This document shows, one piece after another, positions 18,684-39,865 of a DNA stretch of 45,610 bases. The DNA comes from Arthrobacter silviterrae. Its GTDB lineage: Bacteria > Actinomycetota > Actinomycetes > Actinomycetales > Micrococcaceae. Numbering within the stretch: the stretch's first letter is position 1; every line of letters starts with the position of its first letter. The DNA lies in NCBI RefSeq assembly GCF_011045165.1, contig NZ_JAAKZI010000035.1, positions 1 to 45,610 on the forward strand, in the 5' to 3' direction. Under the pieces are notes generated by a model that made no database searches, was not told the origin of the DNA, and saw nothing but the letters and a program-made list of their open reading frames with translations. The position numbers and the translations under genes are program-made.

Positions 18684-19382
18684 TTACTCAGCTTCAACAG
18701 CCTGGGCAGCTTCGCCGCCGGCCGGGGCGAAGCCGGCAGCTTCAGCGGACTCGGCCGTGTCAAACCAAACTTCGGCAACCGTGGCGTCGTACCAGCGCGA
18801 GCCGGGAACGTGGAACTTCATGGAGTCCTCGTTGCCCTTGACCTCGAAGCCCTCGGGGGCTTCGTTGTCGGCGGTGGCGGGGCGTGAGCCGGCGTACTTG
18901 GCCTCGGCGGCCTCCTCGACGGCGGTTTCCTCGGCAGCAGCTTCCTCAACCGGAGCTTCTTCAACCGGGGCAGCCTTAGCAGCAGCTGCGGTGGCTTCCT
19001 TCACAACGGCCTGCTTGGGGCTGACGGGCTCCAGCACCAGTTCGATGACGGCCATGGGGGCGTTGTCGCCCTTGCGGTTGCCGATCTTGGTGATGCGGGT
19101 GTAGCCGCCGTCGCGGTTCTCGACAGCCTTGGCGATGTCGGTGAACAGCTCATGGACAATGCCCTTGTCGCTGATCAGGCCGAGCACGCGGCGGCGTGAG
19201 GCGAGGTCCCCGCGCTTGGCGAAGGTGACCAGTCGCTCTGCGTAGGGGCTCAGGCGCTTGGCCTTGGTCAGGGTGGTGGTGATCCGCTTGTGCTCGAACA
19301 GTGAAGCGGACAGGTTCGCGAGCATCAGGCGCTGGTGAGCCGCTCCGCCGCCGAGGCGGGGACCCTTTGTGGGGGTAGGCAT
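18684..19382 (-). CDS. rplQ: 50S ribosomal protein L17 with extra C-terminal module
   Basis: The protein has 232 residues against about 120-130 in E. coli. The L17 core occupies about 1-122 ([32 protein letters not shown]). An Ala/Glu-rich linker runs from about 129 to 165. A compact module occupies about 181-223 with YHVPGS-type motif [17 protein letters not shown] and AAGFAPAGG. This module is 35 of 42 identical to the C-terminus of L4 (rplD), and the DNA is similarly alike. It resembles what databases label a 'sunset' domain (from memory). The ATG at 19382 has AGGAG seven bases before it; a longer frame adds five residues only. It is penultimate in the alpha operon. Confidence 0.96.
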
Positions 19383-19467
19383 GGTGTTTCTCCTCAAGTG
19401 TCGGTCGCAGGGCGGCTACGCCGGCAATGGCGCGGCCGCCCTGGCAACCAAAGTTGGTTGTTCGTCT

Positions 19468-20478
19468 TTAGACTTCGTCGTCGCCGTAGGCGTCGTCGTT
19501 TTCGTCGATGGCAGCGGCACGGGCGGCCAGGTCAAATCCTGGAGGGGAATCCTTCAGGGAGAGGCCCAGTTCAACCAGCTTTGCCTTGACCTCGTCAATG
19601 GACTTCGCACCAAAGTTGCGGATGTCCATCAGGTCAGCCTCGGAGCGAGCAACGAGTTCACCCACGGAGTGGATGCCCTCACGCTTGAGGCAGTTGTAGG
19701 AGCGGACGGTCAGGTCCAGGTCCTCGATCGGCAGGGCCATGTCGGCGGCGAGGGCGGCGTCCGTCGGGGACGGGCCGATCTCGATGCCTTCGGCGGCCGT
19801 GTTCAGCTCGCGGGCCAGGCCGAAGAGCTCAACCAGCGTGGTTCCTGCAGAGGCGATGGCATCGCGCGGGGAGATGGCCTGCTTCGTCTCCACATCAACA
19901 ATGAGCTTGTCGAAGTCGGTGCGCTGCTCAACACGGGTGGCCTCCACGCGGAAGGTCACCTTCAGGACGGGAGAGTAGATGGAGTCAACCGGGATGCGGC
20001 CGATCTCTGAATCCGCGCTCTTGTTCTGGGCTGCCGAAACGTAGCCGCGGCCGCGCTCAATGGTCAGTTCGAGCTCGAACTTGCCCTTCGAGTTCAGCGT
20101 GGCAATGTGCATGTCGGGGTTGTGGAATTCCACCCCGGCCGGCGGGGCAATGTCTGCAGCCGTGACGGTGCCGGGGCCCTGCTTGCGCAGGTAGGCAACG
20201 ACGGGCTCGTCATGCTCCGAGGACACGGAAAGGCCCTTGATGTTCAGGATGATCTCGGTGACATCTTCCTTGACACCGGGAACCGTGGTGAACTCATGCA
20301 GGACGCCATCGAGGCGGATGCTGGTGACAGCAGCGCCGGGAATGGAGGACAGCAGGGTCCGGCGGAGGGAGTTTCCCAGGGTGTAACCGAAGCCGGGTTC
20401 CAACGGTTCGATGACGAACCGGGACCGGTTTTCGGAAACTACTTCTTCAGATAGGGTGGGGCGCTGTGCAATGAGCAC
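19468..20478 (-). CDS. rpoA: DNA-directed RNA polymerase subunit alpha
   Basis: The 336-residue subunit nucleates RNA polymerase assembly. The N-terminal dimerisation domain ([31 protein letters not shown]) is followed by the linker and the C-terminal domain that contacts UP elements and activators ([30 protein letters not shown]). The start is the GTG at 20478, with AAAGGA upstream. The acidic C-terminal tail is usual in actinobacteria. It is preceded by an unusually long structured gap after rpsK. Confidence 0.98.
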
Positions 20479-20547
20479 TGGGGTTTCCTTTCAGCGAGCA
20501 TCCGCTATATGACGCAACACAGGTAGTGGAAATGGCGGCTGACGACT

Positions 20548-20635
20548 TAACGGCGGCGAAGTTGGCCCTCCCCCGCACCCTCCGGTTTGAGCGGAAGGGG
20601 GGAAAGGCCAACTTGGCGCCGCCAATATGCCGTTA
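20548..20635 (-). promoter_or_regulatory. long hairpin in the rpsK-rpoA gap
   Basis: TAACGGC (20548-20554) pairs with GCCGTTA (20629-20635), which includes the rpsK stop codon. AAGTTGGCC (20559-20567) pairs with 20606-20614. The apex adds a C-run/G-run pairing. No T-run follows, so it looks like an RNA-processing or mRNA-stability element, or an internal attenuator, more than a terminator. Confidence 0.55.
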
Positions 20636-21034
20636 GACGCGACGGCGCTTGGGCGGACGGCAGCCGTTGTGGGCGCTGGGGGTGACATCCTGAATGGAGC
20701 CAACCTCGAGACCAGCAGCCTGCAGCGAACGGATTGCCGTTTCGCGGCCCGAGCCCGGACCCTTTACAAACACGTCAACCTTGCGCAGGCCGTGCTCCTG
20801 GGCGCGCTTGGCAGCTGCCTCGGCAGCCATCTGTGCAGCGTACGGAGTTGACTTGCGCGAGCCCTTGAAGCCAACCTCGCCGGCCGAGGCCCACGAGATG
20901 ACTGCACCGTTGGGATCCGTGATGGAAACGATGGTGTTGTTAAAAGTGCTCTTGATGTGGGCTTGGCCCAGCGCAATATTCTTTTTATCCTTGCGACGCG
21001 GCTTACGAACCGCTCCACGAGTCTTTGGGGGCAT
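20633..21034 (-). CDS. rpsK: 30S ribosomal protein S11
   Basis: The 133 residues carry the S11 signatures [29 protein letters not shown] and the C-terminal [18 protein letters not shown], at typical length. S11 lies on the 30S platform near the E site. The ATG at 21034 is preceded by GTAGGAG with six bases between. It is in the alpha operon between rpsM and rpoA. Confidence 0.98.
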
Positions 21035-21095
21035 TTTATTCTCCTACGAAAGTTTTATTTGGGCGGCGGGCGCTTGGGCCCACGCTTGCCAGGTT

Positions 21096-21125
21096 CCTGA
21101 AAAAATTGCGAAGCAATTTTCCAGG
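21096..21125 (-). promoter_or_regulatory. AU-rich hairpin in the rpsM-rpsK gap
   Basis: On the minus strand AAAATTGC-TTC-GCAATTTT, flanked by a CCTG/CAGG pair, forms a stem with a stable UUCG-type loop, 15 bases after the rpsM stop. The U-rich 3' arm gives it the look of a weak intrinsic attenuator inside the operon. Confidence 0.5.
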
Positions 21126-21139
21126 CCGGCAAGTGGGGA

Positions 21140-21517
21140 CTAGCGGCCGGCCTTCTTCTTGCCTGCGACGGTGCGCTTCGGGCCCTTGCGGGTGCGAGCG
21201 TTGGTCTTCGTGCGCTGGCCGTGCACAGGCATTCCGCGACGGTGGCGGATACCCTGGTAGCTGCCGATTTCAACCTTGCGGCGAATGTCGGCGGCCACCT
21301 CGCGGCGAAGGTCACCCTCAACCTTGTAGTTGCCTTCGATGTTGTCACGCAGCTGAACGAGTTCAGCGTCGGTCAAGTCCTTGACGCGGACGTCCGGGGA
21401 GATTCCCGTGTCAGCAAGAACTTTTTTTGCACGGGTCTTGCCCACGCCGTAGATGTATGTAAGCGCTACTTCCAACCGCTTTTCGCGGGGAAGGTCTACG
21501 CCAGCGAGACGTGCCAT
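21140..21517 (-). CDS. rpsM: 30S ribosomal protein S13
   Basis: The protein has 125 residues. [26 protein letters not shown] N-terminus, [12 protein letters not shown], and the basic tail [23 protein letters not shown] identify S13, which bridges the 30S head to the 50S subunit. The ATG at 21517 has AAAGGAG upstream; the frame is open for another 41 codons but those residues are not S13. A 192-base gap separates it from rpmJ and holds a CCTCAA-GAAA-TTGAGG hairpin (21690-21705) and GC-rich dyads that could be an S4-type control region. Confidence 0.97.
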
Positions 21518-21709
21518 ATCTGGCTGCTCCTTTGGTAAACCGGAGGTCGTAGACAGTACACCCGCATTTTCTTCCAATGCGGCCCCGGCCTCCGACCGGG
21601 GGTCCGTTGGCCGGTTGCGGATTGCTCCGCCTTCGTCCAACTTGTGCTGCCTTATTTATTTACTTACGTGAGCGGCTGCCCGGGTCCTGCCTCAAGAAAT
21701 TGAGGAGGA

Positions 21710-21823
21710 TTAGCCCTGGCGCTGCTTGTGGCGCGGGTTCTCGCAGATCACCATGACGCGCCCGTTACGGCGAATCACCTTGCACTTGTCGCAGATCTGC
21801 TTGACGCTCGGCTTGACCTTCAT
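21710..21823 (-). CDS. rpmJ: 50S ribosomal protein L36
   Basis: This 37-residue protein begins [20 protein letters not shown] and ends [11 protein letters not shown]. It retains the zinc-ribbon ligands of the C+ form (CDKC, then Cys and His in CENPRH). The start ATG at 21823 has AAAGGA five bases upstream. It lies between infA and rpsM in the usual order, 29 bases downstream of infA. Confidence 0.97.
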
Positions 21824-21852
21824 GGCATTCCTTTGCGTGATTGCAGTTGTGG

Positions 21853-22074
21853 TTATTTGTAGCGGTAGACGATACGACCACGGGTGAGGTCGTAAGGGCT
21901 CAGCTCCACCACAACCCGGTCCTCAGGGAGGATACGAATGTAGTGCTGGCGCATTTTTCCTGAGATATGGGCAAGAACGATGTGCTTGTTCGTCAGCTCA
22001 ACACGAAACATCGCATTGGGCAGCGCTTCAGTCACAACGCCCTCGATCTCAATGACCCCGTCTTTCTTGGCCAT
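21853..22074 (-). CDS. infA: translation initiation factor IF-1
   Basis: The 73-residue OB-fold factor ([51 protein letters not shown]) binds the 30S A site during initiation. Length and sequence are standard. GGAGG precedes the ATG at 22074. It is the first gene of the alpha operon here; map, its usual upstream neighbour, is 5.5 kb away because of the ugp-like insertion. Confidence 0.98.
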
Positions 22075-22250
22075 ATCCTCCGCTAACTTTGTTGCGCCGG
22101 CGCCGCCTGGCCCAGACCGGGCCCAACACCGCCAGCATTGGATTTACTACTCATGGTTTGTTTGCCTGCTGCCGCTGAGCCGGGATTTGGCGCACAGCCA
22201 TTCCCTGCTGCGGACCCCGCGCGAGGGCGGGCACAGACAACCAACAACCC

Positions 22251-22280
22251 ACTCTACGGCAAAGCGCCAAATAAGTTAAA
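22251..22280 (-). promoter_or_regulatory. candidate infA operon promoter
   Basis: TTTAAC (22275-22280) and TAGAGT (22251-22256) are separated by 18 bases on the minus strand, 177 bases upstream of infA and 28 bases past the stop codon of the P1 peptidase gene. The -35 matches the consensus poorly. Confidence 0.4.
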
Positions 22281-22307
22281 TTGGGCAATGGTGGAACAGC
22301 TGTGACT

Positions 22308-23300
22308 TTAAGCGCCCTGAAGTGGGAACGGCAGCCATTCACCGGCCGGTGTTTTCACAGCTTCCGCACTCGCCACGCCGTCGAGGATGGCCAGGCGCAC
22401 GGCCTCGGCTGCGGCACTTTGCAGCTCAACCATGGCGGCAACGGGCAGCTGCGGGTCGCGGACCAGCTCGAGCTCGCACGTGGCAAGGGCAAATACCGTG
22501 TCGCCGTCGACCAGGGTGTGGACGGGGTTCAGCGCCCTAGCCATTCCCGCGTGGGCGGCTGTCGCTGTCCTGTGGGCTTCCGCCACGGTCAGGACGGCGT
22601 TGCTCGCCACCACCACCAGCGTGGTGTTCAGGCCCGGCCCGGCGGGCGGAGCCTGCATCCCGGGCTGCCACGGCAGCCCCGCCGCGTTCACCACTGCCAG
22701 GGCGCCCACCACGACACCGCTGTTGTCCCCCGCGAGCCGCACCGATGCGGTCCCCAGCCCGCCCTTGAACGTCCCGCCGCCAATGGCCGCACCCGTGCCG
22801 GCACCCACGTTGCCACGCACGACGGCGGCACCCACGTTGCCACGCACGACGGCGGCAGCCCGGGCCGGGCGGGCTGCGTCCAGTGCCGCTTCGTACCCCA
22901 TGGCGTCGCCCGGCCGGGCGGCAAAGTCGCCGCCGCGGCCCAGGTCAAAGATTGCAGCGGCGGGGACGATGGGCACCACCCCGCCCGGCACGGCAAAGCC
23001 GAGCCCGTTTTGTTCGCACCAACGCTGGACGCCGCCGGCGGCAGCGAGCCCGTAGGCGCTGCCGCCCGTCAGCACCACCGCATCCACGGTGGGGACCAGG
23101 GTGGTGGGGTCAAGCGCGTCGGTTTCGTGGGTTCCCGGACCGCCGCCGCGCACATCGACCGAGCCGATGGTGCCCGGCGGCGGCAGGACCACGGTTACGC
23201 CCGACAGCCAGCCGCCGTCGAGCCTTTGCGCGTTCCCGACCCGGATGCCGGGGACATCGGTGATGGCCCCCGTCCCAGCCGTTGCGTTCCCGTTCGCCAT
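22308..23300 (-). CDS. P1 (S58) family peptidase, DmpA/NylC-like Ntn hydrolase
   Basis: This 330-residue enzyme is of the P1 family, which includes D-aminopeptidase DmpA and nylon-oligomer hydrolase NylC. Family features are visible: ITDVPGIRVGN near the N-terminus, VVLTGGSAYGLAAAGGV (75-91), GGGTFKGGLGTAS (174-186) and NTTLVVVASNA. By analogy to NylC, autocleavage would occur at Asn225-Thr226, freeing the N-terminal threonine nucleophile. An exact in-frame 27-bp duplication repeats AAVVRGNVG at 149-166. The ATG at 23300 has AGGGGG six bases before it. It follows the solute-binding protein gene by 60 bases and may be the last gene of that operon. The substrate is unknown. Confidence 0.88.
   Translation of the reverse strand: MANGNATAGTGAITDVPGIRVGNAQRLDGGWLSGVTVVLPPPGTIGSVDVRGGGPGTHETDALDPTTLVPTVDAVVLTGGSAYGLAAAGGVQRWCEQNGLGFAVPGGVVPIVPAAAIFDLGRGGDFAARPGDAMGYEAALDAARPARAAAVVRGNVGAAVVRGNVGAGTGAAIGGGTFKGGLGTASVRLAGDNSGVVVGALAVVNAAGLPWQPGMQAPPAGPGLNTTLVVVASNAVLTVAEAHRTATAAHAGMARALNPVHTLVDGDTVFALATCELELVRDPQLPVAAMVELQSAAAEAVRLAILDGVASAEAVKTPAGEWLPFPLQGA
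22802..22855 (-). repeat. exact 27-bp tandem duplication within the P1 peptidase gene
   Basis: Two identical 27-base copies (22802-22828 and 22829-22855) are in frame and encode a repeated nine-residue block ending RGNVG. The reading frame is preserved on both sides. Confidence 0.95.
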
Positions 23301-23360
23301 GCCGTACCCCCTGGTGTCCTGCCGCCGCCCTCTTTTCCCCGATTATCCTCCCCGTCCGCG

Positions 23361-24719
23361 TCAGGCCTTGAGCTTGGGCTTGACCGTCTTTGTGTAGATG
23401 CCATCCAGCTTGTCCTGGAGCGCCGTCAGGGTGGCCTTGACATCCGCCTTCTGGTTCATGATCTTCGCCGCGGCGTCCGCCATTTCCTGGTCCGCTCCGG
23501 GCAGGAACACGCGGCCATAATCCTGGCTGCGCGTCACCTTCAGCTGGTCCAGGGCCACCTGGATCTGCGGGGTGGTGGCCAGCACGGCAGCCATGTCGGC
23601 GTCGGTGCGGACAGGCATGTAGCCCGTTGCTGCCGAGAACTTCGCTGTGCTTTGGGCATTGGTCATGAAGGAGACGAACTTTGCGGAGGCCAGCTGGCGC
23701 TCCGGGGAGGTCTTCGAGGCAATGACCAGCCCGGCCCCGCCGGTGGGGCACACCGGCGATGCGGAGACGGGGCCGCCGGGCAGGAAGCCCACGCCAATGT
23801 TCATGTTGGCCGCCTTGGCCGCCTTGAGCGTGCCCACCAGGTCGCCCGTGGAGCTGACGGTGGCGCTTACAGCCCCGGCAGTCATGTCGGAAACGGCGTC
23901 CTTGGAAGAGACGCCCGCCCAGCCGTCCTTCACAATGGTGTCCTGGACCCACTGCATGGCCTTGACGGATTCCGCCGAGTTTGCCGTCAGGGTCCACTCC
24001 TTGGACCAGCCGCCGCCCTGGCCCCACAGCACGTTTTGCAGCGTCCAGCCGGCATATCCGGCCAGCGCCGGGTACTGGTAGGCGTGCTGGTAGCCCGGCT
24101 TCTTGGCGTTCGCAGCCTGGATCTTGGGCGCCCATTGTGAAAATTCGTCCCATGTCTTGGGTGCCCGGTCCGGCAGGCCGGCGGCCTTGAAGTGGTCCTT
24201 GTTGTAGTAGAACAGCGGGGTGGAGCGGGCGTACGGCACAGCCCAGTGCTTGGAGGCATAGCTGTAGTCGCCAAACAGGGTGGCGTTGAAGCCGCCGGTG
24301 GCATCCCCCACAGCCTTCAACAACGCGTCATTGGCCACCACGGTGTCCGCGATGGCGTACCGGAACCACCAGACGTCGGAGGCAACAACCACGTCCGGGA
24401 CGTTGTTGCCGGCCTGGGCGGTCTGGAACTTCTGGGCGACTTCCTCGTAGTTGGCGCCGCCTGTGACCAGGTCAACGGTGATGCCGGGGTTGGCGGCCTG
24501 AAACTCCTTGATGAGCTGGGCCTCAATGTCAGCGGACTTGCCGGGGTGGCTGGACATGAACGTGATCTTGGCGGCCGGCTTGACCTTGGACCAGTCGGTG
24601 GTGGCCGCCGTGGCGCCGGCACCGGAGGTGCTGGGGCCGCCACAGGCCGCCAGGGTGGCTGCACCGAGGCCGAGTGCGGCCACGGAGAGGAAATGTCTGC
24701 GGTTCAGTGATGATGACAT
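23361..24719 (-). CDS. ABC transporter solute-binding lipoprotein, UgpB-like
   Basis: The 452-residue family 1 solute-binding protein has an N-terminal NRRHFL motif followed by a hydrophobic run and the lipobox LAAC (Cys near 26), so it may be a Tat-exported lipoprotein. The mature domain shows the usual pattern (ITFMSSHPGKSADIEAQLIKEFQAANPGI-like start, VPDVVVASD, YNKDHFKAAGLP, PKTWDEF, KFVSFMTN). With the two permeases and a cytosolic glycerophosphodiester phosphodiesterase in the same operon, glycerol 3-phosphate or glycerophosphodiesters are the likely ligands, though sugar ligands cannot be excluded. No ATPase gene is present in the window; actinobacteria often use a shared MsiK/UgpC-type ATPase. 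Confidence 0.88.
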   Translation of the reverse strand: MSSSLNRRHFLSVAALGLGAATLAACGGPSTSGAGATAATTDWSKVKPAAKITFMSSHPGKSADIEAQLIKEFQAANPGITVDLVTGGANYEEVAQKFQTAQAGNNVPDVVVASDVWWFRYAIADTVVANDALLKAVGDATGGFNATLFGDYSYASKHWAVPYARSTPLFYYNKDHFKAAGLPDRAPKTWDEFSQWAPKIQAANAKKPGYQHAYQYPALAGYAGWTLQNVLWGQGGGWSKEWTLTANSAESVKAMQWVQDTIVKDGWAGVSSKDAVSDMTAGAVSATVSSTGDLVGTLKAAKAANMNIGVGFLPGGPVSASPVCPTGGAGLVIASKTSPERQLASAKFVSFMTNAQSTAKFSAATGYMPVRTDADMAAVLATTPQIQVALDQLKVTRSQDYGRVFLPGADQEMADAAAKIMNQKADVKATLTALQDKLDGIYTKTVKPKLKA

Positions 24720-24771
24720 GATGGGTTTCTCTTTCTTCAGGGAGCTTCAGTGGAGAGGAAATCGGATGGGG

Positions 24772-25713
24772 CTAGCCGGTGACGGAGCCCTGGGTCAGGC
24801 CGGCAACGATGAAGCGCTGCAGGGCGGCAAAAACAACAAGGATGGGGATGATGACGATGACGGCGCCCGCCATGAGCACGCCCCAGGCCTGCGAGGTCGA
24901 GTCGCTGTTGGCCAGCAGTGTCAGGCCCACGGGCAGGGTCATCATCTCCGGCCTGTCGGTGACGATGAGGGGCCAAATGTAGTCATTCCACTCCCCCACG
25001 ATGGTTACCAGCGCCACGGTGGCGATGCTGGGGCCGGAGATGGGCACCACCACCTGCCACAGCCGCCGGAAGTGCCCGGCGCCGTCAATTTCCGCCGCCT
25101 CCAGGATGGACGCCGGCAGGGTTAGGAAGTGCTGGCGCAGCAGGAACGTGCCAAATGCCGTCCCCAGGCCCGGCAGGATGATGCCCCAGTAGGTGTTCAG
25201 CCCGTCCAGCCCGGCAATGAAAATGTAGTTGGGCAGCACGGAAACCTGCGGGGGGACCATCAGTGCCACCAGGATGGCCAGGAAGATCGCCTTCTTGAAG
25301 GGAAAATTCACAAACACCAGGGCGTAGGCCGTCAGCACGGCCAGCACGCACTTGATGGTGGAGCCAATGACGGTGACCACCACGCTGTTGAGGAAGAACC
25401 GGGCAAAGGGCACCGTGGTGGCCGCCTGCGCATAGTTGTCCAGGGTGGGGCTGTGCGGCAGCACGCTCAGGCTGGTCGTAATGATTTCGCCCGGGGCCTT
25501 CAGGGAGGAAAGCACCATCCAGCCCAGCGGGGCCACCACCACCAGCGTGGCCAGCAGCAAGGGCAGGTAGCCCGTGGCGGCGGTGCGGGCCAGGTTTCGC
25601 CAGGAGAGGGGCCGGTCCCGGGAATCGCCCTGGCTGCCCGACGGCGGAGCTCCGCCCGCAGGGTCGAACCGTGTGGCGCGTTCATCAAAGGATTCAGCTG
25701 TTTGGGTACTCAC
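24772..25713 (-). CDS. ABC transporter permease, UgpE/MalG-like
   Basis: This 313-residue inner-membrane permease has six predicted membrane segments. The EAA cytoplasmic loop that docks the ATPase is seen as EAAEIDGAGHFRRLWQVVVP. The N-terminal 40 residues are polar and unconserved. The GTG start at 25713 overlaps the upstream permease stop by four bases (GTGA), indicating translational coupling. It should pair with the 25710-26666 product to form the UgpAE-type channel. Confidence 0.9.
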   Translation of the reverse strand: MSTQTAESFDERATRFDPAGGAPPSGSQGDSRDRPLSWRNLARTAATGYLPLLLATLVVVAPLGWMVLSSLKAPGEIITTSLSVLPHSPTLDNYAQAATTVPFARFFLNSVVVTVIGSTIKCVLAVLTAYALVFVNFPFKKAIFLAILVALMVPPQVSVLPNYIFIAGLDGLNTYWGIILPGLGTAFGTFLLRQHFLTLPASILEAAEIDGAGHFRRLWQVVVPISGPSIATVALVTIVGEWNDYIWPLIVTDRPEMMTLPVGLTLLANSDSTSQAWGVLMAGAVIVIIPILVVFAALQRFIVAGLTQGSVTG

Positions 25714-26666
25714 GCGTAGTGGACCTTTCGTTCAACAAAGCGCAGCTGCAATCCGGTCATGACCAGCAGCAGGACAAACAGCACCACCGAGATGGCCGCC
25801 GAATACCCGGCCCGGTTGTAGGCGCCGAAGGCCTGCAGGTAGGACTCGAAGATCAGCGTGCCCGTCCCGTTGCCGGTGGGCGCCATGATCTTGATGATGT
25901 CGAAGGCCTGCAGCGAGCTGAGCAGGGTGGTGATCAGCAGAAAGAACGTGGTCGGGGACAGCAGCGGGAAGGAAATGAACCAAAAGCGGCGCAGGGCCCC
26001 CGCCCCGTCCAGGGCGGCAGCCTCCAGGACATCCCGGGGCATCGACTGGAGCCCCGCCAGGTACACGACAGCGCAGTACCCCAGGTTTTTCCACACATAC
26101 ACGATGATGACCATGGCGAGCGCCAGGTTGGGGTTGTTGATCCACTGCGGACTGGCCAGCCCCACGCCGCGCAGCATCCACGCGAGTGCCCCATAGACCG
26201 GGTCGAAGATAAACAGCCACACCATGCCGACGCCCACCCCGGACAGCACGTAGGGGGCAAAGACGGCCGACCGTGCAATGGTCCGCCCCGGCACCTTCTG
26301 GTTCAGCGCCACGGCCACCAGCAGGCCCAACACCATGGACCCGCCCACTGTCGCCGCCGTGAAGATGGCGGTGGCGCCGAGCACGGCCGGGGCGTCGCCC
26401 GAGGTGAAGAATTCAATGTAGTTCCCCAGGCCCACCACGGTGGCGTCCATGGAACCCAGGGTCCAATCCAGCGTGGAGTAGTACATGTTCACAAACAGCG
26501 GCCGGTAGGTGAAGAAGGCAATCAACACCAGGTTGGGCAGCGCCAGGGCCAGGAACACCCAGGCATCACGGCGTGCGCGTGGCGTCCAGCGCTTGTTTGC
26601 CGCCTTTGGGCGCGGGCTGCCCTTCACCACGGCAGCCGCCGCAGCCCGGCTACTTGTTAGCTGCAC
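25710..26666 (-). CDS. ABC transporter permease, UgpA/MalF-like
   Basis: This 318-residue permease has six predicted membrane segments (first about 34-55: WVFLALALPNLVLIAFF). The EAA loop reads EAAALDGAGALRRFWFISFP. The GTG start at 26666 lies inside the end of the phosphodiesterase gene (17-base overlap), and the stop overlaps the next permease, so phosphodiesterase, UgpA-like and UgpE-like products are translated in a chain. A shorter start downstream cannot be excluded, since the first 30 residues are Ala/Lys/Arg-rich. Confidence 0.9.
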   Translation of the reverse strand: MQLTSSRAAAAAVVKGSPRPKAANKRWTPRARRDAWVFLALALPNLVLIAFFTYRPLFVNMYYSTLDWTLGSMDATVVGLGNYIEFFTSGDAPAVLGATAIFTAATVGGSMVLGLLVAVALNQKVPGRTIARSAVFAPYVLSGVGVGMVWLFIFDPVYGALAWMLRGVGLASPQWINNPNLALAMVIIVYVWKNLGYCAVVYLAGLQSMPRDVLEAAALDGAGALRRFWFISFPLLSPTTFFLLITTLLSSLQAFDIIKIMAPTGNGTGTLIFESYLQAFGAYNRAGYSAAISVVLFVLLLVMTGLQLRFVERKVHYA

Positions 26667-27381: not shown

Positions 27382-27526
27382 GTGGCTGCACTCCTTTTGC
27401 TGGTGGGGCAGGCCGGTCCGCACGCCCTGTGGGCGGGTCCGCTGCCGTGTCAACCACCAAGTTATGCAGTCATTCCGCATCCCGGGTGGCGCAAAGGTGG
27501 ACGCCGGGGAAACGCGGCTTAAACAC

Positions 27527-31106: not shown

Positions 31107-31107
31107 T

Positions 31108-31320: not shown

Positions 31321-32000
31321 TACAGACCTGCCTTTTGCATATTGCGCAACAGCACGGCCGGAGCAACCTCATCCAAGGGCAGTCCGCGGCGGGCCGCAAC
31401 AGCCTTGGGGTCTTCCAGGCGCTTCAGTGCATCAACGGTTGCGTGAACAATGTTGATGGCGTTGGAAGAACCGAGTGACTTGGACAGCACATCGTGGATA
31501 CCAACGCATTCCAGTACGGCGCGGACCGGGCCACCGGCGATAACACCGGTACCGGCAGCAGCCGGACGCAGCAGGACGACGCCGGCAGCGGCTTCACCCT
31601 GGACGCGGTGCGGAACGGTCTTGCCAATGAGGGGAACGCGGAAGAAGGACTTCTTCGCTTCCTCAACACCCTTGGCGATGGCCGCGGGCACTTCCTTGGC
31701 CTTGCCGTAGCCGACGCCAACCATGCCGTTGCCGTCGCCGACGATCACAAGGGCGGTGAAGCTGAAGCGACGGCCACCCTTGACCACCTTGGCGACGCGG
31801 TTGATGTTGACAACACGCTCGATGAACTGGTTCTTCTCGGCCTCGCGGCCACCGTCACGACCGCGGCCACGGCCGCCGTCACGACCGCCACGGCCGCCAT
31901 CGCGACCCCCGCGTGCACCGTCTCGGCCACCACGGCCGGTGGTTGCTGCTGCGGCGTCAGCCGTCGCGGCGGAACCGTCAGCTGCAGTTGCTTCTGACAC
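31320..32000 (-). CDS. rpsE: 30S ribosomal protein S5 with RGG-rich N-terminal tail
   Basis: The S5 core (from [22 protein letters not shown] on, with the double-stranded RNA-binding and S5-C domains) is complete. Ahead of it lies a tail of about 50 residues made of Ala/Thr and then repeated RGG, GGRDGG and GRGRDGG blocks, predicted disordered. S5 lines the mRNA entry channel with S3, which has a similar tail here. I chose the GTG at 32000 because AAGGAG lies six bases before it. A GTG at 32030 overlapping the rplR stop (GTGA) is an equally reasonable alternative and adds ten residues. Confidence 0.95.
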
Positions 32001-32026
32001 AGTGTTCTCCTTGTTAATGTTTTCGG

Positions 32027-32398
32027 TCACAGTGCCAGACCGCCTTCACGTGCGCCGTCGGCAATGGCTGCGACACGGCCGTGGTAGCGGTTGCCACCGC
32101 GGTCGAACACAACAGCGTCGATGCCGGCAGCCTTGGCGCGCTCGGCTACGAGCTCGCCGACGCGCTTTGCCTTGGCAGTCTTGTCGCCCTCGAAGGAGCG
32201 CAGGTCTGCTTCCAGGGTCGACGCCGACGCCAGGGTTACACCCTGGGTGTCGTCAATGACCTGCACGAATACGTGGCGGGCTGAGCGGTTGACCACCAGG
32301 CGCGGACGCACGGTGGTGCCGCTGACGCGCTTGCGAACGCGCAGGTGACGACGGCCGCGTGCTGCGGCCTTGGACTTTCCTCTTACGGACAGTGCCAT
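32027..32398 (-). CDS. rplR: 50S ribosomal protein L18
   Basis: The 123-residue 5S rRNA-binding protein has [34 protein letters not shown] and the terminal [24 protein letters not shown], all diagnostic. Length is usual. The ATG at 32398 follows the rplF stop by two bases. Its stop overlaps a possible GTG start of rpsE. Confidence 0.98.
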
Positions 32399-32400
32399 GG

Positions 32401-32937
32401 TTACTTACCAGCCTTTCCGACCTTGCGGCGGATGATCTCGCCAGCGTAGCGAACGCCCTTGCCCTTGTACGGGTCGGGCTTGCGCAGCTTGCGGATGTTG
32501 GCAGCAACTTCGCCCACCTGCTGCTTGTCAATGCCTGACACGGAGAGCTTTGTGGGGCTCTCAACGGTCAGTGTGATGCCCTCGGGTGCCTCAACGGCAA
32601 CCGGGTGGCTGAAGCCCAAGGCGAATTCCAGGTTGGCGCCCTTGGCGACGACGCGGTAACCGGTACCAACAATTTCCAGCTTCTTCTCGTAGCCCTTGGT
32701 GACACCGATGATCAGGTTGTCGATGAGGGTGCGGGTCAGGCCGTGGAGTGAACGCGAGGCGCGCTCATCGTTGGGGCGGGTAACCGTGATGGTGTTCTCT
32801 TCGAGAGCGACCAGGATGGGGCTGGGCACAGTGTGCTCAAGCGATCCCTTCGGGCCCTTGACGGAGACCAGGTTGTCTTCAACCTTGACCTCGACGCCGG
32901 CAGGCACGGAGATGGGGAGACGTCCAATACGTGACAT
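32401..32937 (-). CDS. rplF: 50S ribosomal protein L6
   Basis: The 178 residues contain both L6 repeats ([19 protein letters not shown] onward; [24 protein letters not shown]) and the C-terminal signature [25 protein letters not shown] region. L6 is near the factor-binding site of the 50S subunit. The ATG at 32937 is 20 bases after rpsH; GAGAAGGG serves as ribosome binding site. Confidence 0.98.
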
Positions 32938-32957
32938 TATTCTTTCCCTTCTCTCTA

Positions 32958-33356
32958 CTACCAGACGTAGGCGAGGACTTCCCCACCCACGCCCTTCTTG
33001 GCAGCCTGACGGTCGGTCAAAAGACCGGAGGACGTCGACAGGATGGCGACACCCAAACCACCCAACACGTTGGGGAGGTTCGTGGACTTTGCGTAAACGC
33101 GCAGCCCGGGCTTGGAGATGCGGCGCAGGCCGGCGATTGAACGCTCGCGGCTGGGGCCGTACTTCAAGTCGATGGTCAACTTCTTGCCAACCTCGGCGTC
33201 TTCAACCTTCCAGCCAGCGATGTAACCCTGGGCCTTGAGGATGTCGGCGATGTGGCCTTTAAGCTTGCTAAACGGCATGGTCACGGAATCGTGGTGTGCC
33301 GAGTTTGCGTTGCGCAGACGCGTAAGCATGTCTGCGACAGGATCTGTCATTGTCAT
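32958..33356 (-). CDS. rpsH: 30S ribosomal protein S8
   Basis: The 132-residue 16S rRNA-binding protein starts [17 protein letters not shown] and ends with the S8 signature [27 protein letters not shown] region. S8 is the known translational repressor of the spc operon in E. coli. ATGs at 33356 and 33350 are both possible. It follows rplE after a 103-base gap; the rpsN gene that usually lies there is absent. Confidence 0.98.
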
Positions 33357-33403
33357 TTGGGCGCTTGCCCTTCCTCGTAACGGTTTCCTTCACGTGGGCG
33401 GAA

Positions 33404-33443
33404 CTTGTCGAAATCAGGCTTCGACAGGCTGAACCAACGGAAC
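33404..33443 (-). repeat. degenerate palindromic element in the rplE-rpsH gap
   Basis: CTTGTCGAA (33404-33412) pairs with TTCGACAGG (33420-33428) around ATCAGGC, followed by CTGAACCAACGGAACGG. The TTCGACAGGCT(C/G)AACCA core resembles a repeat widely dispersed between genes in Micrococcaceae and Microbacteriaceae (from memory). It occupies the place of the missing rpsN gene. Confidence 0.5.
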
Positions 33444-33459
33444 GGACCTTTTACGTAGA

Positions 33460-34044
33460 TTATTTATCTTCGGATTTGAACGGGAAGCCAAGCGCCTTGA
33501 GCAGCGCGCGGCCTTCGTCATCGGTCTTGGCGGTGGTCACGACAGTGATGTCCATGCCGCGTACGCGGTCAATGGAATCCTGGTCGATCTCGTGGAACAT
33601 AACCTGCTCGGTCAAGCCGAAGGTGTAGTTGCCATTGCCGTCAAACTGCTTGTCGCTCAGGCCGCGGAAGTCGCGGATGCGGGGCAGTGCCAGCGTGACC
33701 AGGCGGTCCAGGAATTCCCACATGCGGTCACCGCGAATGGTTGCGTGGCAACCAATCGGCATGCCTTCGCGCAGCTTGAACTGTGCGATGGACTTGCGGG
33801 CCTTGGAAACCTGGGGCTTCTGGCCGGTGATGGCGGTGAGGTCGCGGACGGCGCCGTCAATGATCTTGGAGTCCTTGGCGGCATCTCCAACACCCATGTT
33901 GACAACGACCTTGACCAGGCGCGGAACCTGGTTGACGTTCGCGTACTTGAATTCCTCAACCAGCGCCGCCTTGATTTCCGCTGCGTAGCGGGTCTTCAGG
34001 CGGGGCGTGATCTTGGGCGTGTTCTCTGCAACTGCGGCGCTCAT
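33460..34044 (-). CDS. rplE: 50S ribosomal protein L5
   Basis: This 194-residue 5S rRNA-binding protein contains [62 protein letters not shown] and the C-terminal [21 protein letters not shown] region. Length is usual for actinobacteria. Its ATG overlaps the rplX stop by four bases, so L24 and L5 are translationally coupled. Confidence 0.98.
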
Positions 34045-34403
34045 GCCAGATCCTTCCCCGAGGCCTTGGCAACGCGGATGCGTACTTGACGCTCGCGGCC
34101 ATCGCGCTCAACGGTCTCGATGCGGTAGCCAACGCGGGTCGGCTTCTTGGTGGACGGGTCCACCACGGCAACGTTTGAGATGTGAATGGGTGCCTCAACG
34201 ATTTCGATGCCACCGGTGTTGGTGCCACGTTCCGTCTGGCCGGCCTTGGTGTGCTTGGTGACGCGGTTAATGCCTTCAACCAACACGCGGTTGGTCTCGG
34301 GGAAAACCTTCAGGACCTTGCCCTGCTTGCCACGGTCGCCGCCACGTTCGGGCTTGCCGCCTGTGATGACCTGAACCAGGTCACCCTTCTTGATTTTTGC
34401 CAT
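34041..34403 (-). CDS. rplX: 50S ribosomal protein L24
   Basis: The 120-residue assembly-initiator protein has an N-terminal KOW motif ([33 protein letters not shown] region) and the [12 protein letters not shown] signature. It is slightly longer than E. coli L24 (104), with a basic C-terminus. The ATG at 34403 follows rplN by three bases. Confidence 0.98.
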
Positions 34404-34406
34404 CAG

Positions 34407-34775
34407 TTACAGCACCTCCGGAGCCAACGAGATGATCTTCATGAACTTCTTGTCACGAAGTTCACGGCCAACCGGGCCGAAGATACGGGTTCCACGGGGG
34501 TCCCCGTCGTTCTTGAGAAGCACTGCTGCATTCTCGTCGAACTTGATGTAGGAACCATCCGCACGGCGGCGTTCCTTCTTGGTACGAACGATGACAGCCT
34601 TGACGACGTCACCCTTCTTTACGTTTCCGCCGGGAATTGCGTCCTTGACGGTAGCGACAATTGTGTCGCCAATGCCTGCGTAGCGGCGCCCAGACCCACC
34701 GAGAACGCGGATGGTCAAGATTTCCTTGGCCCCCGTGTTGTCGGCGACCTTAAGCCGCGACTCCTGCTGAATCAC
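34407..34775 (-). CDS. rplN: 50S ribosomal protein L14
   Basis: The 122-residue protein starts [20 protein letters not shown] and has [24 protein letters not shown] and the terminal [18 protein letters not shown]. The start is the GTG at 34775 with AGGAG six bases before; the upstream in-frame codons are not L14. It is the first gene of the spc operon and follows a 512-base non-coding gap. Confidence 0.98.
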
Positions 34776-35099
34776 TAGTGTCTCCTGTTCGTCGCGCCGG
34801 TTCTTGGCCACAATCCAGCTGTGGACAAGCCTTGCGGAACGTATTGATCGGGATGTCTCTCGACGTGCCTGGATTTTGCCAGCACACGCCTAAATGCCTC
34901 ATGCCAACTGCACTTTCCGCACCGGTTGATGGACTGATCCATGATTCGAACGGCAGTTTGTAGTGGCACGAGCATTTACGAGGTAATTGCGCACCCACTG
35001 CCACTGCCGAAAACGGCGGCACAGAAAAGGCGCAGCAATAGACAATCCTAGCACGACGGCGATACCACACCTTGCGCTTGCCGCCCACCCCGGCCCAAC

Positions 35100-35146
35100 G
35101 GGCACTTAACGGGGGTGTTGCAGCGGCACATCCACGTTAAGTGCCC
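35100..35146. repeat. 12-bp perfect inverted repeat in the rpsQ-rplN gap
   Basis: GGGCACTTAACG (35100-35111) is exactly complementary to CGTTAAGTGCCC (35135-35146), with a 23-base loop that itself contains a partial GTGTTGC/GCACA pairing. It resembles a repetitive extragenic palindrome; I see one copy in this window. Confidence 0.7.
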
Positions 35147-35219
35147 GCTCGGCCAGGTGCTGCGGGACCGGCCGCTGGGGCCGGCTCCACGGCCGGCCGC
35201 CGTCGGGCATTAACGCAGC

Positions 35220-35253
35220 GTGGGCCCGCCACCGCGAACGGTGACGGGCCCAC
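35220..35253 (-). terminator. hairpin after rpsQ, probable S10 operon terminator
   Basis: GTGGGCCCG (35220-35228) pairs with 35245-35253, and CACCG with CGGTG inside, closing on a CGAA loop, with a single mismatch. There is little T-run downstream. It lies 34 bases after the rpsQ stop. Confidence 0.65.
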
Positions 35254-35287
35254 CACAGGGGTAATCAATCAGCACGAAGCTGAAGGT

Positions 35288-35584
35288 TTACTTGGCCTTC
35301 TCGAGGATCTCGACCAGGCGCCACCGCTTGGTAGCGGAGAGCGGCCGGGTTTCGCTGATGAGGACCAGGTCGCCGATGCCGGCGCTGTTCTCTTCATCGT
35401 GGGCCTTCACCTTGGAGGTGCGGCGCAGAACCTTGCCATAGAGTGCGTGCTTCACGCGGTCCTCGACCTCGACGACGATGGTCTTTTCCATCTTGTCGGA
35501 GACGACGTAGCCGCGCAGTTTCTTGCGCTCGTTGCGGACAGGCGCCGTGACGCCTTCTTCAATGTTGTTCACAGAATCGCTCAC
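35288..35584 (-). CDS. rpsQ: 30S ribosomal protein S17
   Basis: The 98 residues have a short unconserved N-terminus, then [30 protein letters not shown] and [30 protein letters not shown], the S17 OB fold that binds 16S rRNA. The GTG at 35584 overlaps the rpmC stop by four bases (GTGA). It is the last gene of the S10 operon. Confidence 0.98.
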
Positions 35585-35904
35585 TTGGCGTCCTCCTCAG
35601 ATTTTTCAGCCTTCTTGGAGGCCTTTTTGGCTTCCTTGTCAGCCTTCTTGGAGGCCTTCTCCACCGGTGCGGCAGCGGCGACGTCCGGGCGAATGCCCAG
35701 CTCGCGTTCGCGCAGCACTGTGTAGATGCGGGCGATGTCGCGCTTTACAACGCGCAAGCGACCGTGGCTTTCCAGCTGACCGGTGGCGGACTGGAAACGC
35801 AGGTTGAACAGTTCCTCCTTGGCCTTCCGGAGTTCTTCAACAAGACGCTCGTTGTCGAACCCGTCAAGCTGTGCAGGGGCAAGTTCCTTGGAACCAACTG
35901 ACAT
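35581..35904 (-). CDS. rpmC: 50S ribosomal protein L29 with Lys/Ala-rich tail
   Basis: The protein has 107 residues against about 65 in E. coli. The L29 helical hairpin core occupies about 10-75 ([41 protein letters not shown]). A C-terminal tail of about 30 residues is a run of Lys/Ala/Glu ([19 protein letters not shown]). L29 sits at the peptide-exit tunnel rim. The ATG at 35904 is two bases after rplP. Confidence 0.97.
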
Positions 35905-35906
35905 CT

Positions 35907-36323
35907 CTACTCACCACCTTCGCGACGCACGATGCGTGCTTTCAACGGCAGCTTGTGGATTGCCAGGCGCAGTGCCTCGCGAGCTACCTCTTCTGATACA
36001 CCGGAGAGTTCGAAGAGAACACGGCCGGGCTTGACATTCGCGATCCACCACTCGGGGGAACCCTTACCGGAACCCATGCGGGTTTCAGCAGGCTTCTTCG
36101 TCAGCGGGCGGTCGGGGTAGATGTTGATCCACACCTTTCCACCGCGCTTGATGTGGCGGGTCATGGCGATACGAGCGGACTCGATCTGGCGGTTGGTGAC
36201 GTAGGCGGGCGTCAGGGCCTGAATGCCCCACTCACCAAACGTGACCGTGGTTCCGCCAGTAGCCTGCCCGGAACGACCCGGGTGGTGCTGCTTGCGGAAC
36301 TTTACTCGACGTGGGATAAGCAT
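35907..36323 (-). CDS. rplP: 50S ribosomal protein L16
   Basis: The 138-residue protein starts [19 protein letters not shown] and carries [32 protein letters not shown] motifs, the tRNA-contacting L16/L10e core. Length is standard. The ATG at 36323 directly follows the rpsC stop without a gap, so translation is coupled to S3. Confidence 0.98.
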
Positions 36324-37163
36324 TTAAGCCTGCCCTCCTTCTACTGCCGGAGCTGAAGCTGCGGGAGCCTCCACCGGGGCAGCAGCCTCGGTGCGCTCGG
36401 GACGGTCGTTGCGACGACGGTCGCCACCGGCGCGGGGGCCGCGGGGACCGCGGTCATCGCCGTCACGACGCGGGCCACGGCCACGGGCGGGAGCTGCGGC
36501 TGCCTGGGCAGCCAGTTCCTTGCTCGTGACATCGCCCTTGTAGATCCAGACCTTGACACCGATGCGGCCGAACACGGTTTTGGCTTCAAAGAAGCCGTAG
36601 TCGATGTTGGCGCGCAGGGTGTGCAGGGGCACACGACCTTCGCGGTAGAACTCGGTGCGGGACATTTCAGCGCCGCCCAGTCGACCGGCACAAGCGACAC
36701 GGATGCCCTTGACGCTGCCGGTGCGCTGTGCGGACTGCATGGCCTTCTTCATGGCGCGGCGGAAGGCCACACGTGAAGTCAGCTGCTCGGCGATGCCCTG
36801 GGCAACAAGCTGAGCGTCTGCTTCCGGGTTCTTCACTTCCAGGATGTTCAGCTGAACCTGCTTGCCGGTGAGCTTTTCGAGCTCGCCGCGGATGCGGTCT
36901 GCTTCAGCTCCGCGGCGGCCGATGACGATGCCCGGACGTGCGGTGTGGATGTCCACACGTACACGGTCGCGGGTCCGCTCGATCTCAACCTTGGAAATGC
37001 CGGCCCGGTCCATGCCCGTGGACATGAGTGCGCGGATCTGGATGTCTTCCTTTACGAAGTCCTTATACCGCTGCCCGGGCTTGTTGCTGTCCGCGAACCA
37101 GTGTGAACGGTGGTCCGTGGTGATCCCGAGACGGAACCCGTGCGGGTTTACTTTCTGTCCCAC
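36324..37163 (-). CDS. rpsC: 30S ribosomal protein S3 with RG-rich C-terminal tail
   Basis: The protein has 279 residues against 233 in E. coli. The core is complete: [15 protein letters not shown], the KH domain (about 39-107, [15 protein letters not shown]), and the S3-C domain ([28 protein letters not shown]). After about residue 215 a tail of roughly 60 residues alternates Arg, Gly and Asp ([21 protein letters not shown]) and ends in Ala/Glu/Pro. S3 forms the mRNA entry pore with S4 and S5. Confidence 0.97.
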
Positions 37164-37529
37164 TTAGCGAGCCTCCTCTTTCTCGGGGGTAGCGACAACC
37201 ACGGTGACGTGGCTGGTGCGCTTCTTGATCTGGAAGGCGCGACCCTGTGCACGCGGTTGGAACCGCTTCATGGTCGGGCCCTCGTCAACGAAGATTTCGC
37301 TGATGTACAGATCGTTTTCGTTGAACGCGATGCTGTCGCGATCTGCCAGAACGCGGGCGTTAGCCACTGCGGACTGGACTACCTTGAATACCGGCTCTGA
37401 AGCTGCCTGGGGGGCAAACTTCAGAATCGCCAATGCCTCATTCGCCTGCTTGCCACGAATCAGGTTGACGACGCGCCGGGCCTTCATAGGCGTGACGCGC
37501 AGATGACGCGCACTTGCCTTGGCTTCCAT
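37164..37529 (-). CDS. rplV: 50S ribosomal protein L22
   Basis: The 121-residue protein lines the nascent-peptide exit tunnel. [21 protein letters not shown] and the tunnel-loop hairpin region [23 protein letters not shown] are conserved, and no resistance-type loop duplication is seen. The ATG at 37529 lies 39 bases after rpsS. The stop abuts the rpsC start. Confidence 0.98.
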
Positions 37530-37568
37530 TGCTATCCTTCTCTCGTCTTAGCCGTAAAAGCTAAGCGC

Positions 37569-37850
37569 CTAGCGGCGCTTGCCCTTGCGGTCGTCCTTGA
37601 CATGGCCGCGGAATGTCCGCGTGGGGGCGAATTCGCCGAGCTTGTGCCCGACCATCGACTCGGTGACAAACACGGGGATGTGCTTGCGACCATCGTGCAC
37701 GGCGATCGTGTGACCCAGCATGTCCGGGATGATCATCGAGCGGCGGGACCAGGTCTTAATGACGTTCTTGGTGCCCTTTTCGTTTTCCCTAGCTACCTTC
37801 ACAAAGAGGTGCTGGTCTACGAAGGGACCCTTTTTCAGGCTACGTGGCAT
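37569..37850 (-). CDS. rpsS: 30S ribosomal protein S19
   Basis: The 93 residues ([65 protein letters not shown]) match S19 along its whole length. S19 contacts S13 in the 30S head. The ATG at 37850 follows rplB by 12 bases. Confidence 0.98.
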
Positions 37851-37862
37851 GTCTCCAGGCTC

Positions 37863-38702
37863 CTATCGCTTGTTCTTGCCAGTACGACGGCGACGAACAA
37901 TCAGTTTGTCGCTCTCTTTGTTGGGACGGCGGGTACGGCCTTCCGGCTTACCGTTCGGGTTGACCGGGTGACGTCCACCGGAGGTCTTGCCCTCACCACC
38001 ACCGTGCGGGTGGTCGACAGGGTTCATCACGACACCACGCACGGTCGGGCGGACGCCCTTCCAGCGCATGCGCCCTGCCTTGCCCCAGTTGATGTTGGAC
38101 TGCTCAGCGTTGCCCACTTCACCGATGGTGGCGCGGCAGCGCGCATCAACGTTGCGGATTTCACCGGAGGGCAGACGCAGCTGGGCGAACTTGCCTTCCT
38201 TGGCGACGAGTTGAACAGACGCACCTGCTGAACGGGCCATCTTGGCACCGCCGCCGGGACGCAGCTCCACAGCGTGGATAACAGTACCCACGGGGATGTT
38301 GCGCAACGGCAGGTTGTTGCCAGGCTTGATGTCAGCTGCGGGGCCGGCTTCGACGAAGTCGCCCTGCTTGAGCTTGTTCGGGGCGATGATGTAACGCTTG
38401 GTGCCATCAACGTAGTGCAGGAGGGCAATGCGTGCGGTGCGGTTGGGATCGTATTCGATCTCAGCAACGCGTGCGTTGACGCCGTCCTTGTCGTGGCGAC
38501 GGAAGTCAATCAGGCGGTACTGGCGCTTGTGGCCACCACCCTTGTGACGAGTCGTGATACGACCGGTGTTATTGCGGCCACCCTTTTTGGGCAGGGGACG
38601 GACCAGAGACTTCTCCGGCGTCGACCGCGTGATTTCAGTGAAGTCGGCAACGCTCGAGCCGCGACGGCCCGGGGTTGTCGGCTTGTATTTACGGATTCCC
38701 AT
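37863..38702 (-). CDS. rplB: 50S ribosomal protein L2
   Basis: The 279-residue protein is needed for subunit association and peptidyl transfer. [43 protein letters not shown] segments, and the catalytic-site-proximal [20 protein letters not shown] region are conserved. The ATG is at 38702, 30 bases after rplW. Confidence 0.98.
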
Positions 38703-38732
38703 AGTTTATTTCCTCGTTAAAGTGGTCTCCGC

Positions 38733-39038
38733 TTAGGAAAGCGGACCGCCGAAGATGTCGATTGTGCCTTCGCGAAGGGAAACAATTGCGCGCTTGGTGT
38801 TCTTGCGCTGTCCCCATCCGAACTTGGTGCGCTTGCGCTTGCCGGCACGGTTGATGGTGTTGATCGAGTCGACCTTGACGGAGAAGATTTTCTCCACGGC
38901 CAGCTTGATCTCGGTCTTGTTCGAGCGGGGGTCGACCAGGAAGGTGTACTTGCCTTCGTCGATCAAGCCGTAGCTCTTTTCCGAGACGACGGGTGCAAGC
39001 ACTACGTCGCGCGGATCCTTGATGGTGACGGCGCTCAC
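38733..39038 (-). CDS. rplW: 50S ribosomal protein L23
   Basis: The 101-residue tunnel-exit protein, which docks trigger factor and SRP, shows [28 protein letters not shown] and the basic [19 protein letters not shown] loop. The GTG at 39038 overlaps the rplD stop by four bases, so L4 and L23 are translationally coupled. Confidence 0.98.
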
Positions 39039-39865
39039 TTGGCGTCCTCCTCAATTGTCTGGGCCGACTCGCCACCGGCGGGAACAAAGCCTGCGGCCTT
39101 GGCTTCCTCAACCGTTGCGAACCAAACCTCGGCCACCGTGGCGTCGTACCAGCGTGAACCAGGCACGTGGTACTTCATCGAGTCCTTGTTGCCCTTGATG
39201 GTGCCTTCGGCAGCATCGGCAGCGTCCACGGAATCTTCAACCAACAGCATGCTGGAGGCAAAAGCCTCGGCAGCGGCGCGGCCGGAAACGAAGACATCGT
39301 AGGCAGCCTGCGTGAACACAATGTCATCGGAAACAAGCACGTCATAGGTGTTGAGCTGGTCAACGTAGAGGACGTGGATGTTGGTGATGTTGCGAACGCT
39401 CAGTGCGGCAACGTCGTTGGCGCGCTCAATGACAACCAGCAGGTTCTTGCGGTCGGACACGCCGGCCAGAACTGCCTTGGCAGCCTTCGTGGACGGCGTG
39501 GTGCCAGCAACGAGTTCAGCAACAACGTGGATGCGGCCGTTGCGCGCCCGGTCGGAGAGGGCGCCGCGCAGGGCTGCAGCCTTCATCTTCTTGGGTGTGC
39601 GCTGGCTGTAGTCACGAGGGGTCGGGCCGTGGACAACGCCACCGCCGGTCATGTGCGGGGCGCGGATGGAACCCTGGCGGGCGCGGCCGGTGCCCTTCTG
39701 GGCAAACGGCTTGCGGCCGGCACCGGAAACTTCGGCGCGGGTCTTGGTCTTGTGCGTACCCTGGCGTGCAGCAGCGAGCTGGGCAACGACGACCTGGTGC
39801 AGCAACGGCACGTTGGTCTGTACGTCAAAGATCTCTGCGGGCAGGTCAACTCTTACAGTAGCCAT
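39035..39865 (-). CDS. rplD: 50S ribosomal protein L4 with extra C-terminal module
   Basis: The protein has 276 residues against about 200-210 in most bacteria. The L4 core ([29 protein letters not shown] tunnel loop, about 48-76; later [10 protein letters not shown]) ends near 200. A further 70 residues include a module at about 223-265 with [18 protein letters not shown] and AAGFVPAGG, nearly identical to the C-terminus of L17 (rplQ). L4 autoregulates the S10 operon in E. coli; no equivalent is shown here. The ATG at 39865 follows rplC by four bases. Confidence 0.97.

Follow-up and report, generated by a model that had tools for sequence, protein, structure and literature searches.

A sunset module near the C-terminus of ribosomal proteins L17 and L4 in Arthrobacter silviterrae changes carrier among related bacteria

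Ribosomal proteins L17 (bL17) and L4 (uL4) of Arthrobacter silviterrae are encoded on a 45,610-nucleotide contig (NZ_JAAKZI010000035.1; hereafter the window) that contains a ribosomal protein cluster, and each carries a sunset module near its C-terminus. In related bacteria, the protein that carries this module has changed repeatedly: L20, L22, S16 and several non-ribosomal proteins also serve as hosts, within-genome copying between two hosts is clear in two genomes, and in the genus the module on L4 is at least as conserved as the L4 core. We tentatively favor, with a little less than even confidence, the explanation that the module is a docking head on a tether, with carriers that can replace one another. 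The features of the window that bear on this are as follows.

18684..19382, minus strand: rplQ, ribosomal protein bL17 with C-terminal sunset module, 232 aa (NF051448, Pfam Ribosomal_L17, translation)
18717..18842, minus strand: sunset module of L17 (NF051437, 80.1 bits, profile positions 1-42 of 42)
18843..18896, minus strand: 18-residue pre-segment upstream of the L17 module (coordinates by hand from the translation)
18897..19034, minus strand: Ala/Glu-rich linker from the L17 core to the pre-segment (sequence; coordinates by hand)
39035..39865, minus strand: rplD, ribosomal protein uL4 with C-terminal sunset module, 276 aa (NF051449, list of open reading frames, translation)
39074..39199, minus strand: sunset module of L4 (NF051437, 81.9 bits, profile positions 1-42 of 42)
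39200..39286, minus strand: short L4 linker from core to module, without pre-segment (sequence; coordinates by hand)

Both proteins have normal cores (Pfam Ribosomal_L17, 2.2e-36; Ribosomal_L4, 4.6e-64), followed by a linker and then the 43-residue module. The two proteins belong to the NCBIfam sunset family NF051437 (76.1 bits for L17 and 79.1 bits for L4; curated cut-off 27) and to its variants NF051448 (50S_L17_sunset; L17, 350.4 bits, cut-off 280) and NF051449 (50S_L4_sunset; L4, 426.4 bits, cut-off 385). Since both modules score far above the sunset cut-off, their protein similarity is not due to chance. An earlier, sequence-only reading of this DNA had proposed that L4 and L17 share a module of the ‘sunset’ kind outside their cores, which these scores confirm. 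Its count of nine differing bases among 78 (18763-18840 versus 39120-39197, ungapped) was reproduced, while its 35 of 42 identical residues became 35 of 43 upon recount (L17 residues 181-223, L4 residues 223-265). Seven of the nine base differences are at third codon positions and keep the residue; the other two change it (E/K and F/Y). The central 17-residue motif highlighted in that reading is common and also found on several Pseudarthrobacter L17 proteins.

NCBIfam, whose entries we compared by their one-line descriptions, lists further sunset variants for L20 (NF051450), S2 (NF051451) and ArfC (NF051433). The module on L4, L17, L20, S2 and ArfC is already catalogued there, and since L17 and L4 have sunset entries of their own, the module itself is not new. 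The sequence-only reading knew of no description of it as a system. Our literature searches found no text on the module; the domain and its L17 and L4 variants are named in the databases. The phrase ‘sunset domain’ appeared only in an unrelated context, a literature search aimed jointly at L17, L4 and a C-terminal domain in Arthrobacter found nothing, and the portions of PMC7804294 available to us contain nothing on the module. A description of the change of carrier protein among related bacteria was likewise not found in the literature.

Distribution over carrier proteins

Some sunset domain (E up to 0.001) was present in 93 of 129 genomes of the family. Counting scores above the curated NCBIfam cut-off, the module is carried by L20 in 40, by L17 in 24 and by L4 in 9 of these genomes, and 70 have it on at least one of the three. 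Within this Micrococcaceae set, L4 and L17 coincide rarely, in three genomes (the window genome G000, G069 and G072), so that the pair is no rule of occurrence, and L20 excludes the other two carriers, coinciding with neither in any of the 129. Grouped by genus (n = 32, hand count), 12 have the module on L20 and 7 on L17 or L4 with no overlap, which has a chance of about 0.02 under independent genera, although genera are not independent.

Searches of the order and the phylum yielded matches in 102 of 376 genomes (E up to 1e-15) and 27 of 346 genomes (1e-6), respectively. Besides the loci from these searches, 80 further places were fetched; nine places from the phylum search and some own-family places from the order search lie outside the fetched set. 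Carriers were sorted by BLAST to the ribosomal proteins of the window and an L20, the rest by eye, and then with NCBIfam and Pfam. Additional hosts were L22 (G196 and G276), S16 (G606 and G736, tested; G619, by eye), NusA (G276), NuoE (G736 and G753, tested; G619, by Pfam) and, in G769, a membrane pyrophosphatase that bears two consecutive modules. The identity of these five hosts was confirmed by NCBIfam and Pfam on eight proteins, whose matches (E up to 0.001) include no sunset variant of those hosts, just the NCBIfam sunset entries named above. Several putative membrane-anchored proteins, by eye with one span and a long tether, also carry a cysteine-free module. In the pyrophosphatase (locus L254, a 1359-aa frame), the enzyme itself (NCBIfam, residues 12-784) is followed by a stretch of about 460 residues and then by two different C-terminal sunset modules in tandem.

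The best 80 of 260 confirmed hits, ranked by likeness to the query, comprised 44 L17, 32 L4 and 3 L20 loci and one unsorted locus; owing to this selection, the scan is no census. Their families include Micrococcaceae, Intrasporangiaceae, Dermacoccaceae, Cellulomonadaceae, Nocardioidaceae and Actinomycetaceae. Among all classified loci, L4 and L17 carry the module together in 16 genomes, and the pair is commoner in family f17 (8 classified genomes). The special L4 and L17 pair that the sequence-only reading had suggested was not supported by this survey: the module is on L4 in 23 of 23 genomes of the genus and on L17 in 3 of 23, and L20, L22, S16, NusA, NuoE and the membrane pyrophosphatase are hosts as well. 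A strict rule of one module per ribosome was also rejected, since L4, L17, S16 and NuoE may all carry the module in family f17.

Locus L322, in a record titled Sporosarcina beigongshangi REN13 (a Firmicute name), encodes an Arthrobacter-type L4 with the module of the genus, and the record is probably misnamed. A metagenome-assembled genome titled Acidobacteria bacterium G2_11 has Micrococcaceae-type L4 and L17 with the module on both (loci L317 and L329). At G144:C1:3123426-3124068, the match to the L4 gene falls into two overlapping parts, suggestive of a frameshift or an assembly error, and at G145:C291:753-1348 the L20 gene adjoins a partial sunset match in another frame, with the look of a decaying or mis-assembled L20 sunset tail.

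Change of carrier and copying between carriers

A tree of the modules (181 rows with seven hosts; unlabelled cysteine-free open reading frames were left out) requires at least 17 host changes, a count that cannot separate gain from loss. Starred branches force at least 5 changes for L17, at least 4 for L4 and at least 2 each for L20 and S16.

Within-genome copying is clear in two genomes. In G567, 199 of 210 bases are the same between L4 and L17 and 60 of 62 shared codons are identical, with best orthologues at 0.76 and 0.78; the similarity extends over about 257 bases, judged by eye from the alignment, and ends within the L4 and L17 reading frames. In G606, the S16-borne and L17-borne copies match at 186 of 210 bases and 50 of 56 codons, with best orthologues at 0.69 and 0.81. 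In a rank test, the own partner came first both ways in G567 (0.95), G769 (0.73) and G711 (0.86), the last in a family with only two L4 and two L17. Copying between L4 and L17 is likely in G711, where the own partner lies above the best L17 orthologue (0.80) and below the best L4 orthologue (0.89). G769 has no codon excess, and its own partner lies above the best L4 orthologue (0.68) and below the best L17 orthologue (0.79). The own partner came first one way in G069, G072, G615, G688 and G753.

The sequence-only reading had proposed that one module was copied between two ribosomal proteins and that gene conversion may keep the copies alike. Copying did occur elsewhere in the phylum, as in G567, but conversion in the window genome was not borne out. 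The DNA likeness of its L17 and L4 modules is not clearly above what protein similarity and ribosomal protein codon bias provide: 70 of 81 bases agree over 27 codons (null 66.0 ± 2.5, P 0.08), 13 of 21 codons in that stretch are the same (null 11.3, P 0.27), and the full 44-codon module has 101 matching bases in 132 (null 98.6 ± 3.2, with codons sampled at random from 14 coding stretches of the window; P 0.27). The two modules use the same codon for 18 of 32 shared residues. This codon null alone gave P < 0.05 in 10 of the 16 L4/L17 genomes, including G021, a close relative of the window genome (P 0.001), which speaks for some within-genome likeness.

Orthologues were compared in five family genomes with both copies (G000, G009, G021, G069 and G072). 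The window L17 module agrees with L17 of G009 and G021 at 117 and 118 of 132 bases and with L17 of the more distant G069 and G072 at 102 and 104 of 132, barely above its own L4. The window L4 module agrees with L4 of G009, G021 and G072 at 125, 126 and 128 of 132 bases, and with that of G069 at 110. With pre-segment and tail included, L17/L4 identity within the genome is 0.68, compared with 0.91 and 0.89 for the best orthologues. When the 26 family L17s are ordered by how closely they resemble the L4 of the window genome, its own L17 comes 13th; in the converse comparison with its L17, its own L4 comes 21st among 25. The copies are thus not nearer to each other than to their orthologues, as concerted evolution would have them, and on codon null, orthologue comparison and own-partner rank alike gene conversion was rejected for this genome.

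The L4 copy is genus-wide (the pattern used for one listing of genus L4 genes missed that of G045). The three genus genomes with a module on L17, identified by domain search, are G000, G009 and G021. Among 21 genus genomes whose L17 tails were read directly (in G008 and G022 the contig ends there), 18 end in an Ala/Glu-rich tail without the module. A similar pre-segment (KYAGS ... EAPEGF) precedes the L17 module in Pseudarthrobacter and Psychromicrobium. The L17 core of the window clusters with the genus and has diverged in parallel with the tail, with tail and core values of 0.885 and 0.936 between G000 and G009 and of 0.85-0.86 and 0.88-0.89 between G000 and four Pseudarthrobacter, so the tail looks inherited with the gene. 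Of the two copies in this genome, that on L17 is probably the more ancient, having come down with the L17 gene and been lost in most of the genus. Retention of this old copy with losses elsewhere in the genus fits the data best, and a regain would be compatible with them; that the L17 module was lost rather than gained is what we infer. Horizontal gain of L17 from Pseudarthrobacter is disfavored by the grouping of the core with the genus and by the parallel divergence of core and tail.

Over 20 genus genomes (three genus L4 genes were left out for their start), the L4 module has a mean protein identity of 95.6%, compared with 92.4% for the L4 core. The same-codon rate is 0.845 for the module versus 0.744 for the core; synonymous sites are more conserved in the module.

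The cysteine-free form and its relation to Ada

Two forms of the sunset module occur, one cysteine-bearing and one cysteine-free. Not one of 181 modules on cytosolic-type carriers (labelled by carrier mostly via BLAST, 16 loci by eye) contains a cysteine. Among 64 open reading frames that were not classed by carrier (redundant loci included), 49 have exactly two cysteines; a further 12 have none, 2 have a single one and 1 has three. A pattern with one cysteine before the IKG words and one before an aromatic residue is matched by 49 of the 64. Many of the cysteine-bearing frames look exported by eye; the label ‘sec’ was assigned from the presence of cysteine, and the agreement of 49 of 49 cysteine-bearing frames is therefore no test. 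A third sunset protein of the window genome (L005, G000:C53:15443-15568) has a signal-like start and a cysteine pair and is of the exported type.

A cysteine-bearing intermediate links the sunset family to the N-terminal zinc-binding domain of Ada (PF02805; PDB 1adn, 1wpk, 1u8b). Locus L203 (G247) scores 32 bits with the sunset profile (cut-off 27), a 52-residue piece of it scores 39.9 bits with Ada_Zn_binding (cut-off 23), and phmmer with this piece found Ada structures at about 1e-4. As L203 passes the one cut-off and its piece the other, the two families are probably related. Together with the phmmer matches, this makes sunset a probable Ada-like domain whose ribosomal form has lost the zinc site. 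The zinc ligands of Ada_Zn_binding are four cysteines. Unlike the Ada N-domain, the cytosolic-type sunset form is cysteine-free and has no direct Pfam match; PF02805 did not match the window proteins at E up to 1. The sequence-only reading had considered a metal as a ligand of the module. A metal-binding head of the Ada type would agree with the scores of L203 and with the one histidine that is invariant in the module alignment (A3), but with none of the 181 cytosolic-type modules offering even one of the cysteine ligands, an Ada-like zinc site and metal binding are unlikely, and we give this explanation hardly any credence.

Possible roles of the module

In the ribosomal carriers L4, L17, L20 and L22, a tether of 21-125 residues leads to the module, and the frame ends shortly after it (medians of 8 to 16 residues, largest 27). 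Under the explanation that we favor, the cysteine-free sunset offshoot would be held near the C-terminus of abundant proteins by a putatively disordered tether and would act as a docking head that binds one putative common partner, and it would matter little which ribosomal protein displays it. Its carrier has changed many times among L20, L17, L4, L22 and S16, in at least two cases through copying, and gain or loss has been frequent. That the head is conserved while its base can be exchanged points to a shared binding partner; disorder in the tether, the head's fold, its docking role and the partner are all predictions. The make-up of ribosomal proteins is usually regarded as fixed, and a domain that changes host, while its conservation within the genus equals or exceeds that of the L4 core, suggests a function at the ribosome that is independent of the exact carrier.

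Three observations weigh against this proposal. The module is dispensable, since 59 of the 129 family genomes are without it on L4, L17 and L20 (among them G128, with an L17-like copy at a contig edge). The resolution of the module tree is low, with 70 columns behind its 181 rows and stars on 14 of the 173 inner branches. Lastly, the synonymous conservation of the L4 module could be explained by a recent spread without function.

The C-terminal extension of uL4 in Cutibacterium acnes (PDB 8crx, 8cvm, 9c4g) carries the module as well (E 4e-21). The parts of PMC10085706 available to us treat this segment as a solvent-exposed extension without density, likely disordered, and do not mention a domain. 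What was left as disorder in a published ribosome structure is now identified as a sunset module.

On the large subunit, L4, L17, L20 and L22 lie on the solvent and tunnel side, and S16 and S2 belong to the small subunit; with carriers spanning both subunits, a tunnel-exit factor is not required. The sequence-only reading had suggested such a factor common to L4 and L17, in other words a paired docking site on the exit-tunnel side that gene conversion keeps alike. Both are large-subunit proteins, their modules occur together in the 16 classified genomes mentioned above, and G567 shows copying between them; yet the window genome shows no homogenisation, L4 has the module without L17 in 20 of 23 genus genomes, and L20, S16, NusA, NuoE and the membrane pyrophosphatase are carriers too. 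Because L4 and L17 are not paired in the genus and other hosts exist, a common exit-tunnel factor is not favored, and we consider a paired site very unlikely. The same copying could also belong to a hitch-hiking element that recombination spreads between highly expressed genes, whose 3’ ends resemble one another in being GC-rich and coding for Ala/Glu, and that is tolerated there with little benefit to the cell. The tract inside the L4 and L17 coding regions of G567, the S16/L17 codon agreement in G606, the patchy presence on L17 in the genus and hosts unlike in function agree with this. An amino-acid conservation at least equal to that of the L4 core, retention on L4 throughout the genus and the absence of cysteine from all 181 cytosolic-type modules do not, and we regard hitch-hiking as unlikely, if deserving of some weight.

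It is also rather improbable that the module is a C-terminal cap, i.e., a small fold that ends a disordered tail and serves protease protection or tail solubility. Its location near the C-terminus behind a low-complexity tail in the ribosomal carriers is what a cap would predict, but 18 of the 21 L17 proteins read in the genus have a similar Ala/Glu tail without one, and linker length varies widely. As a more speculative proposal, which we hold with low confidence, the cysteine-free module could be an intracellular actinobacterial address label on ribosomes, NusA, NuoE, membrane pyrophosphatase and single-span membrane proteins, with a common adaptor or label-to-label contact gathering translation at the membrane and RNA polymerase. 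This idea is based on the leaning of the non-ribosomal hosts to membrane and transcription: NusA is a transcription factor that works next to ribosomes, and NuoE is part of complex I. If true, selection would need only some ribosomal protein to wear the label.

Rickettsia palindromic elements are short sequences that lie in frame within unrelated genes. The sunset module resembles them as a short in-frame sequence on unrelated genes and differs from them in being a conserved protein domain near the C-terminus. In the window, L17 is followed just downstream by an open reading frame at 17734-18657 (minus strand) that looks like truA, going by an RTDAGVHA-type signature motif recognized by eye.

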